From NCBI RefSeq assembly GCF_900093605.1, contig NZ_FLYE01000048.1:62001-126000 (forward strand): a stretch of 64,000 nucleotides of DNA, read 5' to 3'. The notes under the pieces were generated by a model. The model had not been told where the DNA came from. It saw only the letters and a program-made list of their open reading frames with translations, and ran no database searches. The translations under genes were made by a program, and so were the position numbers. Positions 38,584 through 45,704 of this stretch are shown piece after piece (position 1 is the stretch's first letter; every line of letters starts with the position of its first letter). The DNA comes from Candidatus Terasakiella magnetica (GTDB lineage Bacteria > Pseudomonadota > Alphaproteobacteria > Rhodospirillales > Terasakiellaceae).

Positions 38584-39798
38584 ATGAGCATGAAAAAAAT
38601 TGCACTTATTGGCGGCGGCCCTGCCGGATTGATGGCAGCTGAGCAACTTGTCGGCAAAGGCCATGAGGTTCATCTTTTTGATGCGATGCCCTCATTGGGG
38701 CGCAAGTTTCTCATGGCCGGTAAAAGCGGGATGAACCTGACCCATAGTGAAGAGTTAGAAGAGTTTTTAAAACGCTATAGCGATGGGGCGCCCGTTCTGG
38801 AACAAGCCATTCGTGAATTTAGCCCTGAAGATATTCGCAATTGGGCGAAAGATTTGGGCATTGAAACTTTTATCGGCAGTTCAGGGCGTATATTCCCAAC
38901 CGATTTCAAGGCCGCCCCGCTGCTGCGCAGCTGGATTAAATCCCTTAAAATTAAGGGCCTTCAAACCCATATGCGCCATCGCTGGATGGGATGGGACAAG
39001 GGCGAGCTGATCTTTGAAACACCCAATGGGCAAACCAGCTTTAGCGCCGATGCAACCCTCCTTGGGCTTGGCGGGGTCAGTTGGCCCAAGCTTGGTTCAG
39101 ATGGAAACTGGCAAACTGCCCTTAGAGAGCGCGAAATATCACTAAATGAGTTTAAGCCAAGTAACTGCGGTTTTCTTGTGGAGTGGAGTACGTTCTTTAT
39201 TGAGAAATTTGCAGGCCACCCTGTTAAATCCATCGCCCTTAAAACGGAGCTTGGCTATAAAAAAGGCGATTTTGTTATTTCCAAAACAGGTGTTGAAGGC
39301 AGTGCTATTTACACCCATAGCCGTGCCTTAAGATTAGAAATTGAACAACAGGTTAAGGCCGCCCTTCATATTGACCTCACACCGGATCGTTCCCTTGAAC
39401 AATTGCGCACCGCCTTGCAAAAACCACGCGGGTCAAAATCCATTTCCACCCATATTAAACGGGCAACGGGGCTAAGCGGTGTTAAAGCGGCCTTGCTGCG
39501 TGAATGTCTGGATAAAGACCGTTTTTCTGACATGGAAAAACTCGCCATTGGCATTAAAAACCTGCCACTTGATTTAACCGCCCCGCGCCCCATTGAAGAA
39601 GCGATTAGTTGCGCAGGCGGTGTCGCCTTTGATCAGCTTGATGAAAACCTGATGGTAAAAAATCACCCCGGCCTATTTATCTGTGGTGAAATGCTGGATT
39701 GGGATGCGCCAACGGGGGGCTATCTGCTCACGGCCTGTTTTGCCTCGGGTAAACGCGCAGGCAATGGTGCTGCCAAGTGGCTAGGCTCAAGGCCCTAA
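38584..39798 (+). CDS. FAD/NAD(P)-binding flavoprotein (HI0933/BaiN-like, TIGR03862 type)
   Basis: This 404-residue protein starts with a dinucleotide-binding motif (IALIGGGPAGLMAAEQLVGKG) and the family signature LGRKFLMAGKSGMNLTHSE, and ends with GGVAFDQLDENLMVK, LFICGEMLDWDAPTGGYLLTACFASG. These are typical of the HI0933-like flavoprotein group, whose substrate is mostly unknown. An in-frame ATG two codons later is an alternative start. The gene begins 13 bases after the terminator 38528-38570, with only a weak AGGG site, so it may depend on read-through. Its end overlaps the end of the convergent hybrid kinase by four bases. Confidence 0.87.
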   Translation: MSMKKIALIGGGPAGLMAAEQLVGKGHEVHLFDAMPSLGRKFLMAGKSGMNLTHSEELEEFLKRYSDGAPVLEQAIREFSPEDIRNWAKDLGIETFIGSSGRIFPTDFKAAPLLRSWIKSLKIKGLQTHMRHRWMGWDKGELIFETPNGQTSFSADATLLGLGGVSWPKLGSDGNWQTALREREISLNEFKPSNCGFLVEWSTFFIEKFAGHPVKSIALKTELGYKKGDFVISKTGVEGSAIYTHSRALRLEIEQQVKAALHIDLTPDRSLEQLRTALQKPRGSKSISTHIKRATGLSGVKAALLRECLDKDRFSDMEKLAIGIKNLPLDLTAPRPIEEAISCAGGVAFDQLDENLMVKNHPGLFICGEMLDWDAPTGGYLLTACFASGKRAGNGAAKWLGSRP

Positions 39799-42743
39799 AT
39801 AATTTTCTTTTCAAAGGTCCGGTTAATGGTGCCCAACAGATCAGGAATATTAACCGGCTTGGTCACATAGGCACGAAAACCTGATTTCAGACCATGTTCA
39901 ATATCTTCCGGTAGAGCTTTTGCACTTAGGGCAATCACCGGGATCGCTTGGGTTTTTACATCATTTCGCAAGATATTCATGGCCTCAAACCCGTTCATAC
40001 CGGGCAGGTTGATATCCATTAAAATAAGATCGGGCGTGTGACGCTTGGCATAAGTAACAGCAGATTTCGCATCATTCACCATGACAAGTTCAACACCCGC
40101 CAAATTTGATATTGCCCGTTCAATCAAGAACTGGTTTGACGGGTTGTCTTCTGCATAAAGGATCGTCTTGCCACTTGTATGACTTGGTCCCGCACCATCT
40201 TCCTCTTCAATGATCTCGTTATTAAACCCAACGATAAAGTCGCTTTGTAGCTGACTATCCTCATTTTCAATAAAATCTGGTTTGGTTGTGGGCAAATACA
40301 GGCTGAAAGTTGAGCCTTTCCCTTCTTCACTTTCAACCTGAATGTCCCCACCCATCATTGTGACCAATTTGCGCGTGATGGTCAGGCCAATACCACTGCC
40401 TTCAATATTTTGGCCCTCCACACCCAAACGGTTAAAGGGTGTGAATAAATCTTTCATCTTGTCTTTTGCAATACCATAGCCACTATCGGAAATTGAAAGG
40501 ACAAGGGCATCTTCTTCCTGCTCAACACATAAGAAAACGTCACCTTCATCACGGTTATATTTAATAGCGTTGGAGAGAATATTAACCACAACCTGTTTTA
40601 AGCGAACCGGATCGCCATATACGCTAATCACATCCTCATCAATCTGGTTATGCAAAGTAACAGAGCGGTCATCCGCCATATTTTGCACCAAATCAATGGA
40701 ATCACTCACGGCTGCAACAAGATCAACTTCCATGATATTAAGCTGCATTTTGCCAGCTTCAATTTTTGCCAAATCAAGGATTTCGTTGATCAGCCCTAAA
40801 AGATGCTGACCTGCTTTAAAAATATGCTGGGTATATTCACGTTGGGTTTCGCTAAGCTTGTCTTTGCGGCTCATTTCCATCAATTGAGCAAAACCAAGAA
40901 TCCCATTTAGCGGTGTGCGCAGCTCATGGCTCATGGACGACAGAAATTCCGATTTCGCCCTGTTGGCCTGTTCGGCCTCATCGCGCGCTTTAATCAATTC
41001 GCGTGATCGTTCATCCACCAGTTCCTGTAAATGATCACGATGGCGAGAGAGTTCTTCTTCTGCCTTTTTGCGCTCATCAATATTTTCTTTAATGGCAAGA
41101 TAACGCTGCACACTGCCATCGGGCTCATACATAGGGGCGATGGAAAGAAGCTGCCAAAAGAGGCTGCCGTCTTTTCGTTTATTTAAAACCTCACCTGACC
41201 AATCCTTGCCTTGCTTTAAGGTCTCCCACAGGTTTTCATAATATTGGTGTGGCATATGGCCTGAGCGCACCATGCTGGTTTTATGACCAATGGCTTGTTC
41301 GCGACTAAAGCCAGTATTCTCTGTAAATTTCGCATTTACATATTCAATCACCCCGTCCGTATTGGTGATGATCACCTCAGCGGGAGATTGCTCAAGCGCA
41401 TAAGATAGGCGGCGCATGGTTTCGGCATCTTCACGCAGGCTGGTAACATCTTGAGACACCCAGACAAAACCACCGTCTTCCATCAGGTTCGTATCATTAT
41501 CCACCACACGTCCATCGTGGTAATAACTTTCCCATGAGCATGCTTTTTGCCGTAAACTATTTAAATCGCGCTGATCAGGGCTTAATGTACATAGGCTGAG
41601 GCTTTCCATTTCCAATTGATGGAATTTTTCATAGGACGTGCCCGGTGCAGCCCAATGTTGATCACAGCCTGTAATCATAACAAAGGCCTGATTGGAAACT
41701 AATAACTCACCCGTCTCATCAAACACGGCAATCCCGTGGTTAATCTGGTTTAACGTGGCTTCTAAAAGATGAAGTGATTTTTCATTTTCTTTTTGACGCA
41801 GGCGATATTCCCGTTCTTTAATTTTAGAAATATCACTACAAACAAAGATCGCCCCTTCTTCTTTACCCTGACTGTCATAAAGCCGCGTGGCGCGGAGCAA
41901 ATAAGGATGCGCAATCGCCGCATTACCATTTGATGTAATCTCAAAACGCAAAGAGACCTCGGCCTCAAAAGAACTCACAGCAAAACAAAGTTGATAGAGA
42001 AGCGGCTTGTTTAGATTAAGCTGTCCCTTATAATCTTCTGCAAATCTTTCAAGGTCTTTATTGGCTAATAAATCATCAACGCTGCGACCTAAAAACTCAT
42101 CTTCTTCACAGCCATATACAGACAGGGCCGTCTTGTTCACCCGTTGGATATGACCATCAGGCCCTGCAATGATGATCACTTCACTAATGGTATTGGTGAC
42201 CCGGTTTACAAGTTCGTTCAACTTAGTCAGGCGTTGTGATTTTTCTTTCCATTCCGTCTTTCGCGACATCATTTCAGAAAACATGCGATCCATGTCTTCC
42301 ATACCTGAAACCACTTGTTCTTCCAACGCTGTGTTCGCTGCGCTCTTGGCTTCAAGCTCCATCTCAAGGATATGGATACGATCTTTTAGGGCCTGTACAT
42401 CTGGGGAAACGGCCTGCGCAGATGTGATAAGAAAGAAATTCTCATTATCACTGAGCACATCATAGGCAATGGAATTCTGCCCCACCAGCTCATAGGCATG
42501 ACCATGGCGCGGGCACACCAATGTATTGCCCTCAACTGGGGCATATATCAGGGAGGCTCCAGCATGTTTGCACGCAAGAGGAACCGCAATATAGCGCCCG
42601 CTAAAGGTTAAGATCATAACCTCACTTAACTGATCTGCCCCCACAAGGCGGACCTGACCGATCCAGCGTTTCTCCCCTTGAAAATCCACCTCATCATGAA
42701 TGGTGATTTTAATTGGCATATTTTCACGTGTTGAAGGGATCAT
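39795..42743 (-). CDS. Hybrid histidine kinase with N-terminal Rieske [2Fe-2S] domain
   Basis: This 982-residue protein has no membrane helix. Residues about 10-105 are a Rieske ferredoxin-type domain with both ligand pairs: C58-x-H60 (ACKHAG) and C77-x2-H80 (CPRHGHAYEL). A coiled linker (about 110-175) follows, then three or four PAS segments (about 175-295, 325-420, 445-560), one with a PAC motif KRKDGSLFWQLLSIAPMYEPDG. The kinase core has His606 in [16 protein letters not shown] and an ATPase domain with SDSGYGIA and GSGIGLTITRKL. A C-terminal receiver carries Asp910 (LILMDINLPGMNG). It is the last gene of the hydrogenase operon; its ATG overlaps the protease stop (ATGA) after a GGAGGGAG site. 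Likely redox or H2 signal output; the response partner is not in the window. Confidence 0.92.
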   Translation of the reverse strand: MIPSTRENMPIKITIHDEVDFQGEKRWIGQVRLVGADQLSEVMILTFSGRYIAVPLACKHAGASLIYAPVEGNTLVCPRHGHAYELVGQNSIAYDVLSDNENFFLITSAQAVSPDVQALKDRIHILEMELEAKSAANTALEEQVVSGMEDMDRMFSEMMSRKTEWKEKSQRLTKLNELVNRVTNTISEVIIIAGPDGHIQRVNKTALSVYGCEEDEFLGRSVDDLLANKDLERFAEDYKGQLNLNKPLLYQLCFAVSSFEAEVSLRFEITSNGNAAIAHPYLLRATRLYDSQGKEEGAIFVCSDISKIKEREYRLRQKENEKSLHLLEATLNQINHGIAVFDETGELLVSNQAFVMITGCDQHWAAPGTSYEKFHQLEMESLSLCTLSPDQRDLNSLRQKACSWESYYHDGRVVDNDTNLMEDGGFVWVSQDVTSLREDAETMRRLSYALEQSPAEVIITNTDGVIEYVNAKFTENTGFSREQAIGHKTSMVRSGHMPHQYYENLWETLKQGKDWSGEVLNKRKDGSLFWQLLSIAPMYEPDGSVQRYLAIKENIDERKKAEEELSRHRDHLQELVDERSRELIKARDEAEQANRAKSEFLSSMSHELRTPLNGILGFAQLMEMSRKDKLSETQREYTQHIFKAGQHLLGLINEILDLAKIEAGKMQLNIMEVDLVAAVSDSIDLVQNMADDRSVTLHNQIDEDVISVYGDPVRLKQVVVNILSNAIKYNRDEGDVFLCVEQEEDALVLSISDSGYGIAKDKMKDLFTPFNRLGVEGQNIEGSGIGLTITRKLVTMMGGDIQVESEEGKGSTFSLYLPTTKPDFIENEDSQLQSDFIVGFNNEIIEEEDGAGPSHTSGKTILYAEDNPSNQFLIERAISNLAGVELVMVNDAKSAVTYAKRHTPDLILMDINLPGMNGFEAMNILRNDVKTQAIPVIALSAKALPEDIEHGLKSGFRAYVTKPVNIPDLLGTINRTFEKKII

Positions 42744-43228
42744 AAGCTCCCTCCTTGGCTGACGTGATCTAAAATAAGGCCAACGGCTTCATCCACCTTG
42801 GCGCCAACTTCTGCGCTCAGTTCCATCTTAAATGTTTTTGGGGATGCAACCGTGCAGGTCAGCACCTTAATATCTTCAACAACTTTTTGGTCTTCTGCCA
42901 GAATATCAAGGCCTTGTAAAATGGCCCCCACCCCAAGCCCGTGTGATGAAATCTCGCCCGCATGTGTTTGTGCCTTAAAATGCTCAGCACTGTGCCAAGA
43001 TAGCCCCACAGTGCCCGTATCATCCTTTAGCGCATCAACCACAATGGCCTGCTCACAACCTTCAAACAGATTAAGGGCTGATAAGCTGGAGGTTCCCCCA
43101 TCCATGAGCTTTACATCAGTCCCTAAATCCTGTTGGGATAACGCCTTAAAAACAGCCGTACCAAACCCGTCATCCCCATGAAGGGGATTACCAAAACAAA
43201 TGATATGAGTGTGCGCGTTTTTATGCAT
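42740..43228 (-). CDS. [NiFe] hydrogenase maturation protease
   Basis: With ATG at 43228, sharing its A with the large-subunit stop (TGATG), the protein has 162 residues. FGNPLHGDDGFG and the region VVDALKDDTGTVG hold the acidic residues that bind nickel in HupD/HybD-type endopeptidases, and SSHGLGVGAIL matches the HGxG segment. It should cut the C-terminal tail of the large subunit once nickel is inserted. Its presence within the operon agrees with the short tail seen on that subunit. Confidence 0.9.
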   Translation of the reverse strand: MHKNAHTHIICFGNPLHGDDGFGTAVFKALSQQDLGTDVKLMDGGTSSLSALNLFEGCEQAIVVDALKDDTGTVGLSWHSAEHFKAQTHAGEISSHGLGVGAILQGLDILAEDQKVVEDIKVLTCTVASPKTFKMELSAEVGAKVDEAVGLILDHVSQGGSL

Positions 43229-44733
43229 CACTTACCAAACCACAACCTTTTATCATTGCCCATCACATGGACGGTACAGACCAAACAGGGATCATGTGAG
43301 CGAATAACATGACCAATTTCCAACGGGTCATTTTCATCGGCAATGGGCACACCGATCAGGCTTTCTTCCCAATGCCCACGTCTTTCCTGTGCATCACGGG
43401 GTGAGGCATTCCACGCCGTTGGGGTCACCACCTGATAATGAGCGATTTTGCCATCACGTATTTTCACCCAATGTCCAAGGCAACCCCGCGCAGCCTCAAT
43501 GGTACCAAAACCCTCACCATCCTGCCCAAGGGGCTGATTTTCAATAAAGGGTTGATGCTCATGTGCAAGAAGGTCATTTAACAGCTTGCGCACCATCAAC
43601 AGGCTTCCCGCTTGACGACGAATGCGCGCAAATTGACGCAGCCATGCATTGCTGCCCTCAGCCTTGGCAAAATCGCGCATCAAGCCATCACCGCTATTTA
43701 ACAAAGAAGATAGTGCCCCTGTCTGCACGACCTGATCATCATAGCGTGGAGCCTTGGCCCAACTATAGGCCTTACCGCCTTCTGAATAATTCGGCTGGGT
43801 CACCCCGTCATAGGGATGAAGCGGTTTCGCCAGCTCATCATTAAACCAGGCATGGGATAGGTCTTCAGTGATTTTTAGATGATCAAAGCTTTGCTGATTA
43901 TCCACATCACCTTGGCGAATATAACCACCTGTGCGCAACAAGCTGTTGTTTTCTCCATCAGGAAGGTAGCCATAACTTAAATGATTTTGCGAACCTTGGG
44001 CATAATCCTGTAAGCCAAGCAAGCGTCCAAAGCGGGTAAAGAGGCTGGCGATATTATCGGGATTTTCCTCACACCATTGCAGGTAATCCGCAGCTTTATC
44101 CATCGCCATCCAGTTTTCCAGATCATCACCAATGACGCGTTTTTCAAACCAGTTTGTATAGCCATCAAGCACATTTAACGCATCATGAAGATTGCGCGTA
44201 TTAACTGGCGTGGTCACCCCACCGGGCACCATATAGGACGAATGCGGCCATTGCCCGCCAAAGATGGCAACGATCTCGACAATCTTTTTGCTTTGTTTCA
44301 CCGCATCGCGATAAGCTTGACCTGATATTTCCTTAAACTCAGAAACCACCTGATCAAAACCTTCAACCCCTGCATATTTTTCATGACATAGGTCTGGGGT
44401 GAACATCAAAAAGGTCTGGCGACAATCAGATAAAATTTCTTCTGCCAGCAAACAGACATTGCGAATACGTTTACCATTATCAGGTACGGAAATATTAAAA
44501 GCATTTTCCAAGGCCAACACGGCCGTGTAAAGATGGGCTGTCCCGCAAATGCCGCAAATGCGCGGTGTGATCGCCAATGGGTCTAAGGCATCACGCCCAA
44601 TGAGGATTTGTTCAAACCCGCGATAAAGAACCCCTTTACACCAAGCATCCACCACGCGACCGTCCTGAATTTCCACATCCAGTTCCAGATCACCTTCTAC
44701 ACGGTTTAAATCTATGGCAATGCGTCTCGACAT
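43228..44733 (-). CDS. [NiFe] hydrogenase large subunit
   Basis: This 501-residue catalytic subunit binds the Ni-Fe centre through the L1 motif RICGICGTAH (Cys60, Cys63) and the L2 motif DPCLVCTVH (Cys483, Cys486). Beyond His489 a 12-residue tail (VMGNDKRLWFGK) remains to be removed by the protease. The usual RxEGH motif near the N-terminus reads RVEGD. By eye it is closest to the cytoplasmic group 2 hydrogenases. No membrane anchor, cytochrome b or hyp genes are in the window. The gap to the small subunit gene is 14 bases. Confidence 0.92.
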   Translation of the reverse strand: MSRRIAIDLNRVEGDLELDVEIQDGRVVDAWCKGVLYRGFEQILIGRDALDPLAITPRICGICGTAHLYTAVLALENAFNISVPDNGKRIRNVCLLAEEILSDCRQTFLMFTPDLCHEKYAGVEGFDQVVSEFKEISGQAYRDAVKQSKKIVEIVAIFGGQWPHSSYMVPGGVTTPVNTRNLHDALNVLDGYTNWFEKRVIGDDLENWMAMDKAADYLQWCEENPDNIASLFTRFGRLLGLQDYAQGSQNHLSYGYLPDGENNSLLRTGGYIRQGDVDNQQSFDHLKITEDLSHAWFNDELAKPLHPYDGVTQPNYSEGGKAYSWAKAPRYDDQVVQTGALSSLLNSGDGLMRDFAKAEGSNAWLRQFARIRRQAGSLLMVRKLLNDLLAHEHQPFIENQPLGQDGEGFGTIEAARGCLGHWVKIRDGKIAHYQVVTPTAWNASPRDAQERRGHWEESLIGVPIADENDPLEIGHVIRSHDPCLVCTVHVMGNDKRLWFGK

Positions 44734-44747
44734 ATAGGGCTTCCTGC

Positions 44748-45704
44748 TTATGGTTTCATTTTACGGCTTGCGACCCTGTCAGGTGCAGCGGCCTTGGCAA
44801 GGCCCTTATAGGCCATATAGCGCGGACGTTTGACCCCAAGGGGAAGTTCCACCGGAATGTCCCCGATTTTTTCCGTTTTAAAGAGGGCTTTATCGCGCGG
44901 GAATGTGGGTTCTACACAGCCAATGCAGGGCACACCAGCGCGGGTTTTACTGCTGGTTTTATTCCACAATTCCGTATTACAGGTGGCGTGCGTGACCGGA
45001 CCTTGACAGCCCATATTGAAAAACAGGCAGCCTTCTTGGCCAAACTCGGTCTCTTCAATGTCATATTCATGATATTCATTGCGTGTACAGCCCTGATGGA
45101 CCATGGCATTAAAATAAAGCTCTGGCTGGTTTACATCATTAAGCGCAAGTTCATTTCCACGCAACAAAGCCTGAATGACCTGCACCATGGTATGGGGGTG
45201 GGCCGGACAGCCTGAAACATTAATCACCGGATAGCCGCCACGCGCTTGCCAATCCATAGGCAACAAACCGCCCATCGCACCTTTATGATATTGCAGGCCT
45301 GTACAATCTGTCGGGTTGGGGTTTGAGGCATGCACCCCGCCATATGAAGCACACGTCCCAATGGCGATCACATGGGTGGCTTTTTGCGCCAAAGCATGGA
45401 TGATGTCTTTTTTAGGTTTGCCCCGCCACGCATCAAACATGCCGGTCCCGTTTGGCCCCATCATGATGCTGCCTTCCACACAAAGGATGGAAAGTTCTTT
45501 TTCATCATTACAGATATCGTCAATCTGTTGGGCCAGATGAGAGGTGGGTTCAACCGACAAGGAAGGATGCCACAACAAATCAACTTTGTTGCGCTCAATA
45601 AATTCGACAAAATCAGGGTCCTCAGCACAAAGCAGAGACATAGAATCCCCACTACATGACCCTGCTTGTAACCACATCAAAGATGGGTTTTCTTGTGCAC
45701 CCAT
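44748..45704 (-). CDS. [NiFe] hydrogenase small subunit, no export signal
   Basis: This 318-residue subunit starts directly with the flavodoxin-like fold (PSLMWLQAGSCSGDSMSLLC) and has no twin-arginine signal or C-terminal helix, so the enzyme stays in the cytoplasm. Ligands visible: proximal cluster Cys17, Cys118, Cys166; distal His203, Cys206, Cys226, Cys233; medial Cys242, Cys260, Cys263. The usual second Cys of the first CxxC is Asp20. LLWHPSLS, TGLQYHKG and SSKTRAGVPCIGC resemble group 2 (HupS/Huc/HupU-like) enzymes. Start ATG at 45704 follows GGGAGG. First gene of the operon. Confidence 0.92.
   Translation of the reverse strand: MGAQENPSLMWLQAGSCSGDSMSLLCAEDPDFVEFIERNKVDLLWHPSLSVEPTSHLAQQIDDICNDEKELSILCVEGSIMMGPNGTGMFDAWRGKPKKDIIHALAQKATHVIAIGTCASYGGVHASNPNPTDCTGLQYHKGAMGGLLPMDWQARGGYPVINVSGCPAHPHTMVQVIQALLRGNELALNDVNQPELYFNAMVHQGCTRNEYHEYDIEETEFGQEGCLFFNMGCQGPVTHATCNTELWNKTSSKTRAGVPCIGCVEPTFPRDKALFKTEKIGDIPVELPLGVKRPRYMAYKGLAKAAAPDRVASRKMKP

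Follow-up and report, generated by a model that had tools for sequence, protein, structure and literature searches.

Where do the electrons of an H2-sensing [NiFe]-hydrogenase go? In the model proposed for H2 sensing, H2 must be oxidised without interruption and its electrons passed on (PMC10073562), and in 2015 the partner of the regulatory hydrogenase (RH) was described as a 'yet unknown cytoplasmic electron acceptor' (PMC5665086). Four genes of Candidatus Terasakiella magnetica bear on this question. They lie in a 64,000 nt stretch of contig NZ_FLYE01000048.1 (positions 62,001 to 126,000; the whole stretch is called the window below) and encode a [NiFe]-hydrogenase, its maturation protease and a hybrid histidine kinase that begins with a Rieske [2Fe-2S] domain. 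Sequence comparisons lead us to propose that they specify a self-contained, cytoplasmic, H2-driven signalling unit in which the hydrogenase would pass its electrons to the Rieske cluster of the transducer, and perhaps to a flavin adenine dinucleotide (FAD) in the third PAS domain (PAS3). We put the probability of this reading at roughly 0.6.

A four-gene hydrogenase and kinase operon

The small subunit, large subunit, protease and soluble Rieske-PAS kinase form one tight operon of four open reading frames (ORFs) on the minus strand. The spacing between the genes is +14, -4 and -4 bases, i.e., a 14-base gap followed by two 4-base overlaps. The genes and their relevant parts are as follows (positions in the window).

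44748..45704, minus strand: [NiFe]-hydrogenase small subunit, 318 residues, no signal peptide seen
45645-45647, minus strand: Asp20 of the small subunit, in place of the fourth Cys of the proximal cluster (from alignment)
43228..44733, minus strand: [NiFe]-hydrogenase large subunit, 501 residues (Pfam), with RICGICGTAH (His67) and DPCLVCTVH plus a 12-residue tail
43231..43266, minus strand: C-terminal tail of the large subunit, 12 residues, predicted to be removed by the protease; the group 2b sensors compared are without it
42740..43231, minus strand: hydrogenase maturation protease of the HycI/HupD family, 163 residues (Pfam)
39795..42743, minus strand: hybrid kinase, Rieske-coiled coil-PAS-PAS-PAS-HisKA-HATPase-REC, 982 residues (Pfam)

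An earlier note on this DNA had described the coupling and the gene identities in the same way, and both the ORF coordinates and the Pfam matches of the products agree with it (NiFe_hyd_SSU_C/Oxidored_q6; NiFeSe_Hases; HycI protease; Rieske-PAS-HisKA-HATPase_c-Response_reg). The distal-cluster His203 is kept in the small subunit. In the kinase and in both hydrogenase subunits the highest mean hydrophobicity over 19 residues is no more than 1.25, so that a membrane segment is not expected in any of them, and the kinase is predicted to be soluble, as had been claimed.

The Rieske transducer and its relatives

The domains of the kinase were placed as listed here.

42414..42719, minus strand: Rieske [2Fe-2S] domain, about residues 9-110 (Pfam 27.2 bits, cut-off 20.3, E 3.7e-6)
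42570-42572, 42564-42566, 42513-42515 and 42504-42506, minus strand: Rieske ligands C58, H60, C77 and H80, respectively
42219..42401, minus strand: predicted coiled coil, about residues 115-175 (read from the sequence)
41799..42218, minus strand: PAS1, residues 176-315, with weak similarity to HoxJ's N-terminal PAS domain; proposed hydrogenase-docking domain
41427..41753, minus strand: PAS2 (PAS_7), residues 331-439 (Pfam)
41067..41402, minus strand: PAS3, residues 448-559; nearest solved structures MmoS, NifL and Aer; FAD-type Trp506 and Asn521
40752..40958, minus strand: HisKA (Pfam), with His606 at 40926-40928
40284..40616, minus strand: HATPase_c (Pfam)
39825..40163, minus strand: receiver domain (Response_reg, Pfam), with Asp910 at 40014-40016

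The Rieske domain, which scores over the Pfam cut-off, carries the C-x-H ... C-x2-H ligand set; C58, H60, C77, H80, H606 and D910 all stand at the positions first reported for them. The Rieske-linked operon recurs in three further genomes, G005 (same genus), G1407 (same order) and G450 (another class), and an accident of a single genome is ruled out by this recurrence. Across the carriers the Rieske domains score 27-33 bits in Pfam, and the other three are 26-49% identical to that of the window. The ligands are invariant in all four proteins, being among only 13 invariant columns of their alignment. Compared with solved structures, a profile built from the four domains matched Rieske ferredoxins and oxygenases, giving 25 matches at E <=0.01. 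Recurrence in four genomes upholds two parts of what the earlier note had proposed, the signalling role and the Rieske fusion, whereas its third part, direct transfer of electrons from the hydrogenase, is something that we infer.

The output of the transducer is not constant. The window, G005 and G1407a (one of two related genes in G1407) have a kinase output; in G1407a the receiver domain is absent and HisKA scores 20.5 bits, below the 26.9 cut-off, but an H-box-like motif is present. In G450 the kinase output is replaced by GGDEF-EAL with both motifs intact, and the Rieske, PAS1 and PAS3 domains are kept.

PAS1 gave only a weak Pfam match, near residues 179-235, and is also backed by comparison with relatives. 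It matched HoxJ at E 3.8e-7 in a set of 14 sequences (21% identity), and its four matches to solved structures were all weak. The coiled coil was also matched in the Rieske-free partners of related hydrogenases in Ideonella and G1644. PAS3 is closest, among solved structures, to MmoS (3EWK), NifL (2GJ3) and Aer (8DIK), and for the PAS3 of G450 all three were within the best five matches. We know of no link between NifL, MmoS or Aer and a hydrogenase. These three proteins are FAD redox sensors (PMC9668731, PMC10468136), and the window PAS3 resembles their FAD domain in having the Trp and Asn of the published criterion, a conserved F-alpha Trp plus Asn/His (PMC10468136); W506 and N521 were matched to flavin-pocket residues by an alignment made here. 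Both residues are kept in G005 and G450. This FAD-type PAS3 had been overlooked in the earlier note.

A wider clade of signalling-linked hydrogenases

Relatives of the hydrogenase were collected by large-subunit surveys of 60, 398, 48, 317 and 321 sampled genomes (overlapping sets, with differing E cut-offs) and by a small-subunit search of plasmids. The latter matched 124 records, of which 40 were listed; the best, from Ideonella dechloratans, was followed as belonging to the clade, four more were used as type 2a or 2b references, and the remaining plasmid matches were not placed. In all, 21 further genes of a wider clade were found, one on the Ideonella plasmid and 20 in genomes (G005, G028, G450, two in G465, G486, G513, G524, G556, G1233, G1254, G1255, G1259, G1262, G1263, G1405, two in G1407, G1471 and G1644). 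The Ideonella large subunit had no match in 390 genomes around G487, in a search without a positive control.

All 22 clade hydrogenases adjoin a HisKA/HATPase or GGDEF gene, which lies downstream in 21 cases and upstream in one (G028). The partners were identified with Pfam in 21 cases and by eye in G028. A PAS domain was found in 20 of the 21 partners scanned, the exception being the partner of G1407b in the reading frame as called here. Rieske domains are carried by four of the 22 partners, three with kinase outputs (window, G005, G1407a) and one with GGDEF-EAL (G450). The Rieske-free partners of Ideonella, G1644 and G1471 are GGDEF-EAL proteins, and the remaining 15 are kinases (13) or PAS-GGDEF proteins (2).

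Two of these neighbourhoods have features of their own. In G028 (L134:1638-5618) the PAS kinase is directly upstream of the small subunit, and the large-subunit frame stops before the C-terminal motif, either an interrupted gene or an assembly error. Five loci of a Rieske-free sister clade (L084, L088, L089, L105 and L106) show a recurring larger signalling cassette beside the hydrogenase, with a receiver protein of 125-127 residues, a protein of 594-687 residues and a second kinase of 681-765 residues.

A large-subunit tree of 33 rows (19 clade members, seven of type 2a and seven of type 2b) was rooted on 2b by choice; the 2a and 2b labels were assigned here, with Cupriavidus HoxC and relatedness to the Huc structures as anchors. 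A second tree of 38 rows holds all 22 clade members, adding G1254, G1263, G1467, a partial G040 and a partial G028. The large subunits of the four Rieske carriers group as a single clade (99/97 with 33 rows, 100/97 with 38 rows), sister to the three GGDEF-EAL rows, and the seven are held together at 100/99 and 100/100, respectively. With the twelve others of the 33-row tree they make up the wider clade (99/98; 99/97 for this node with 38 rows), next to 2a and apart from 2b. The window large subunit falls outside the 2a clade (100/100). Of the rows added in the 38-row tree, G1467 and G040 (partial) group with 2b, and G028, also partial, lies inside the wider clade. A single gain of the Rieske domain would suffice for this tree, and the grouping of the Rieske-linked hydrogenases suggests co-evolution with the enzyme.

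The fourth ligand of the proximal cluster is Asp, combined with a distal His, in all 20 clade small subunits aligned (of 22; G1263 and G028 were left out). The corresponding residues are Asn and Gln in the four type 2a small subunits aligned, and Cys and His in the two of type 2b; the proximal Asp is a third ligand pattern besides those of 2a (Asn) and 2b (Cys). Large-subunit tails of 10-16 residues were present in 19 of 19 clade members checked, and their length is zero in all seven of type 2b. Directly after CGIC there is a His in all 19 clade members checked (in G524 the motif is shifted and was read by eye) and a Gln in the seven 2b rows. Published descriptions have the RH large subunit without a C-terminal extension (PMC10073562) and with Gln instead of a conserved His (PMC5665086), a Gln that was assigned to the column after CGIC from the sequences compared here. 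An ordinary HupUV/HoxBC sensor is ruled out by the tail, the His/Gln difference, the proximal Cys and the tree, and an ordinary Huc-type 2a enzyme by tree position and cluster ligands (Asp/His versus Asn/Gln).

Comparison with known systems

The earlier note had compared the operon with HupUV/HoxBC (group 2b) and their kinases HupT/HoxJ. The likeness is that of a hydrogenase tied to a soluble PAS histidine kinase, with a PAS1 that is weakly HoxJ-like. Unlike the 2b enzymes, the window hydrogenase belongs to a separate clade and has a C-terminal tail, a protease, His67 (not Gln) and Asp20 (not Cys), and its transducer has a Rieske domain, extra PAS domains and a receiver domain. A nearer published relative is putative group 2c, and the comparison should be amended in that direction. 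HydDB names group 2b 'histidine kinase-linked' and group 2c 'diguanylate cyclase-linked (putative)', the latter being enzymes that may sense H2 and act via cyclic di-GMP (PMC5037454). Group 2c is the closest published label: the operon has a group 2-type dimer adjoining a PAS-bearing signalling protein, and the diguanylate cyclase link is found in four relatives of the seven-gene clade, namely the sister genes of Ideonella, G1644 and G1471 and the Rieske-linked G450, all of which adjoin GGDEF-EAL proteins. The window itself lacks that link, since its partner is a histidine kinase, and it differs from the published label in that this partner is a hybrid kinase with an N-terminal Rieske domain, neither of which the label mentions. 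High support separates the window clade from 2a and 2b, in trees that include no authenticated 2c sequence. Enzymes of group 2c are reported from Methylobacter genomes (PMC12810054). In NCBIfam, none of six large subunits passed any cut-off, and no model separates the wider clade. We rate the Rieske-linked operon as a variant within the sensory [NiFe]-hydrogenase systems, not as a separate kind.

Huc (group 2a) is the nearest solved structure to the window hydrogenase. HucE, its genetic partner, has a Rieske-type iron-sulfur motif that has been proposed as the electron acceptor of Huc (PMC6883350). Unlike the window transducer, HucE is an iron-sulfur protein with a NifU domain, proposed to carry electrons and not to signal (PMC6883350), and the cluster ligands of 2a differ from those of the window. 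In a 2025 survey of gene neighbourhoods, [NiFe]-hydrogenases had kinases, EAL/GGDEF proteins and NifU-Rieske proteins among their neighbours (PMC12727194); its domain lists, which apparently omit rare domains, give no Rieske domain in kinases or EAL/GGDEF proteins. No Rieske-fused signalling protein is described in the titles and abstract beginnings of the open-licence papers listed.

The Rieske domain away from hydrogenases

Fusions were also sought from the Rieske end, in 385, 48 and 5 genomes, using three known carriers as queries; the known carriers G005 and G1407 lie outside the 385-genome sample, and domains that diverge as far as the Rieske domain of G450 could be missed. In none of the 22 other Rieske loci returned did the reading frame with the Rieske motif also match a PAS, kinase, receiver, GGDEF or EAL domain. 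Among the fusions found, in a limited sample of genomes, the Rieske-PAS architecture adjoins the hydrogenase in four of four cases, which is the outcome of the check that the earlier note had suggested. Residues 1-174 of the kinase had no match in 72,556 plasmid records, and a search of genome contigs with the whole kinase gave three loci, matching in the kinase part only.

In a tree of Rieske domains, six sequences of the hydrogenase-linked type stand apart from six other Rieske proteins (95/94), although the domain is short and the inner branches are mostly weak. Two of the six are stand-alone proteins, from G003 and G026, and both keep all four ligands. The stand-alone gene of G026 (L034:386-718) is near a contig edge, and the best match to the window large subunit in that genome is a HupV-type gene. 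A large fusion with a Rieske motif in G241 (L042), by reading CDGSH-Rieske followed by a thiamine pyrophosphate (TPP) domain, resembles a TPP-dependent enzyme and not a signalling protein.

The host genome and its congeners

The window genome (3.68 Mb in 47 contigs, estimated 100% complete) has no [NiFe]-hydrogenase large subunit other than that of the operon, which was detected as two pieces of one gene, and so there is no other [NiFe]-hydrogenase for the window enzyme to regulate. The earlier note had reported neither an electron-transfer partner nor a hyp gene. The first point stands, as no electron-transfer, quinone- or membrane-linked partner is encoded within the four-gene unit; the second is to be corrected, as hypA, B, F, C, D and E, each scoring over its NCBIfam cut-off, are clustered on another contig, the site of the only HypD match in the genome. 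Their retention means that the window hydrogenase can be matured. A HypX-like fusion of formyltransferase and enoyl-CoA hydratase adjoins the hyp cluster (NCBIfam match below cut-offs). Also beside it (genome G000, L004:1549-5829) are a periplasmic-binding-protein-like gene and a 1037-residue hybrid kinase, the kinase part of which resembles, by reading of the sequence, that of the Rieske kinase.

Among the congeners, G005 has the operon at the same site and in the same gene order, and additionally carries a HupV-type gene and further hydrogenase matches. In G001, G002 and G004 the site is bare, and the flanking flavoprotein and lipoprotein-like genes (the latter by reading) are directly adjacent. 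The unit is therefore self-contained, and the flanking genes are ruled out as parts of the system. In G003 the site is occupied by a lone Rieske ORF of 98 residues (L126:1200-1496; Pfam 38.0 bits) with CKH and CPLH intact, which may be the remnant of a lost operon or else an independent gene.

Proposed mechanism and alternative explanations

The operon, the domains, the ligands, the recurrence, the clade and the output swap are the sequence-level basis of the proposed unit. It is supported by the same operon in four genomes, with invariant ligands, a swapped output and a retained input module; by the position of 22 of 22 clade members beside signalling genes, with the Rieske-linked enzymes in one clade; and by the lack of an electron-transfer partner in the unit, a sole [NiFe]-hydrogenase for which hypA-F are nevertheless kept, and a PAS3 like those of FAD sensors. 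Just as the Rieske-type motif of HucE was proposed to accept electrons from Huc, the transducer's own Rieske domain is the natural candidate for the acceptor of H2-sensing electrons.

From this basis we infer H2 as the signal, and likewise the docking, cluster assembly, electron path, direction of control and target. The protease would mature a catalytically competent [NiFe] dimer, with the hyp genes acting from elsewhere in the genome. The dimer would then dock on the transducer, probably via the coiled coil and PAS1, as in HoxBC-HoxJ; docking to PAS1 is plausible because this domain is also present in the sister genes' partners, which have no Rieske domain, and is weakly HoxJ-like. The three iron-sulfur clusters of the small subunit would conduct electrons from H2 to the Rieske cluster, with FAD in PAS3 as a possible further acceptor. 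The activity of the downstream output, a phosphorelay in the window and cyclic-di-GMP turnover in G450, would then depend on how far these cofactors are reduced. The more specific claim, that the Rieske cluster (with or without a PAS3 FAD) is the physiological acceptor of a sensory [NiFe]-hydrogenase and belongs to an input module joined to interchangeable outputs, is tentative, and we would rate it slightly below an even chance.

Several observations weigh against this proposal. The flavins of Aer and MmoS are at -290 mV (PMC9668731) and Rieske clusters above -150 mV (PMC6883350), so that transfer from Rieske to FAD would be uphill; the two may be alternative acceptors, or set two thresholds, instead of forming a simple relay. 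The FAD-type motif of PAS3 was not found in G1407a, and the AlphaFold model of the Rieske domain alone had a predicted local distance difference test (pLDDT) score of 40.8 and was not used. Stand-alone Rieske genes of the same subfamily, scoring over the Pfam cut-off, occur in G003 and G026 with no hydrogenase of this type adjoining. Most of the wider clade, 18 of 22 partners, is without a Rieske domain (by Pfam in 17, by eye in G028), a fact that the earlier note had also passed over. The Rieske domain is therefore not required for the general mechanism, and supplements a hydrogenase-signalling partnership that exists without it.

The same 18 partners are the strongest point in favour of a different explanation, in which the hydrogenase would signal by conformational docking to PAS1 alone and the Rieske domain would be an independent second input (O2 or cell redox) that tunes or vetoes the output. 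The sharing of PAS1 with the Rieske-free partners, and weakly with HoxJ, fits such docking, and the stand-alone Rieske proteins show that the subfamily exists outside the operon. However, in the genomes searched the Rieske-PAS fusion occurs only beside this hydrogenase, the 22 other Rieske loci having no signalling domain in frame, and the single clade of Rieske-linked hydrogenases suggests co-evolution with the enzyme. We regard this explanation as unlikely overall, and as the most serious competitor to electron transfer into the transducer. Considerably less probable is a Huc-like H2 scavenger whose Rieske domain carries electrons to a respiratory acceptor, the kinase merely reporting or regulating the flux. 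It would account for the active-site His and cleavable tail kept in the large subunit and for the lack of another [NiFe]-hydrogenase to regulate, and Huc is the closest solved relative, with a Rieske-type motif in its partner HucE; but the clade lies outside 2a and does not share its Asn/Gln ligand pattern, 22 of 22 examined members adjoin signalling genes, and the unit encodes no quinone- or membrane-linked partner. A Rieske domain devoid of a cluster, acting only as a fold or docking surface, would agree with the modest domain scores (27-33 bits) and is very improbable, since just 13 columns are invariant across these divergent proteins and all four ligands are among them, and both stand-alone relatives keep the ligands as well.

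Implications for H2 sensing

On the proposed electron transfer into the transducer, the signalling protein contains a defined candidate acceptor that can be seen by spectroscopy, in kinases and in one cyclic-di-GMP enzyme, which makes the question of the sensor's acceptor directly testable on purified complexes. The Rieske-linked operon extends the idea behind the putative group 2c. As the host has no other [NiFe]-hydrogenase, the signal is suggested to control a target different from the expression of an uptake [NiFe]-hydrogenase. If the proposed electron transfer is real, it would be, in our judgement of the literature searched, the first case of gas sensing by electrons that pass from a metabolic enzyme to a cofactor of the signalling protein itself.

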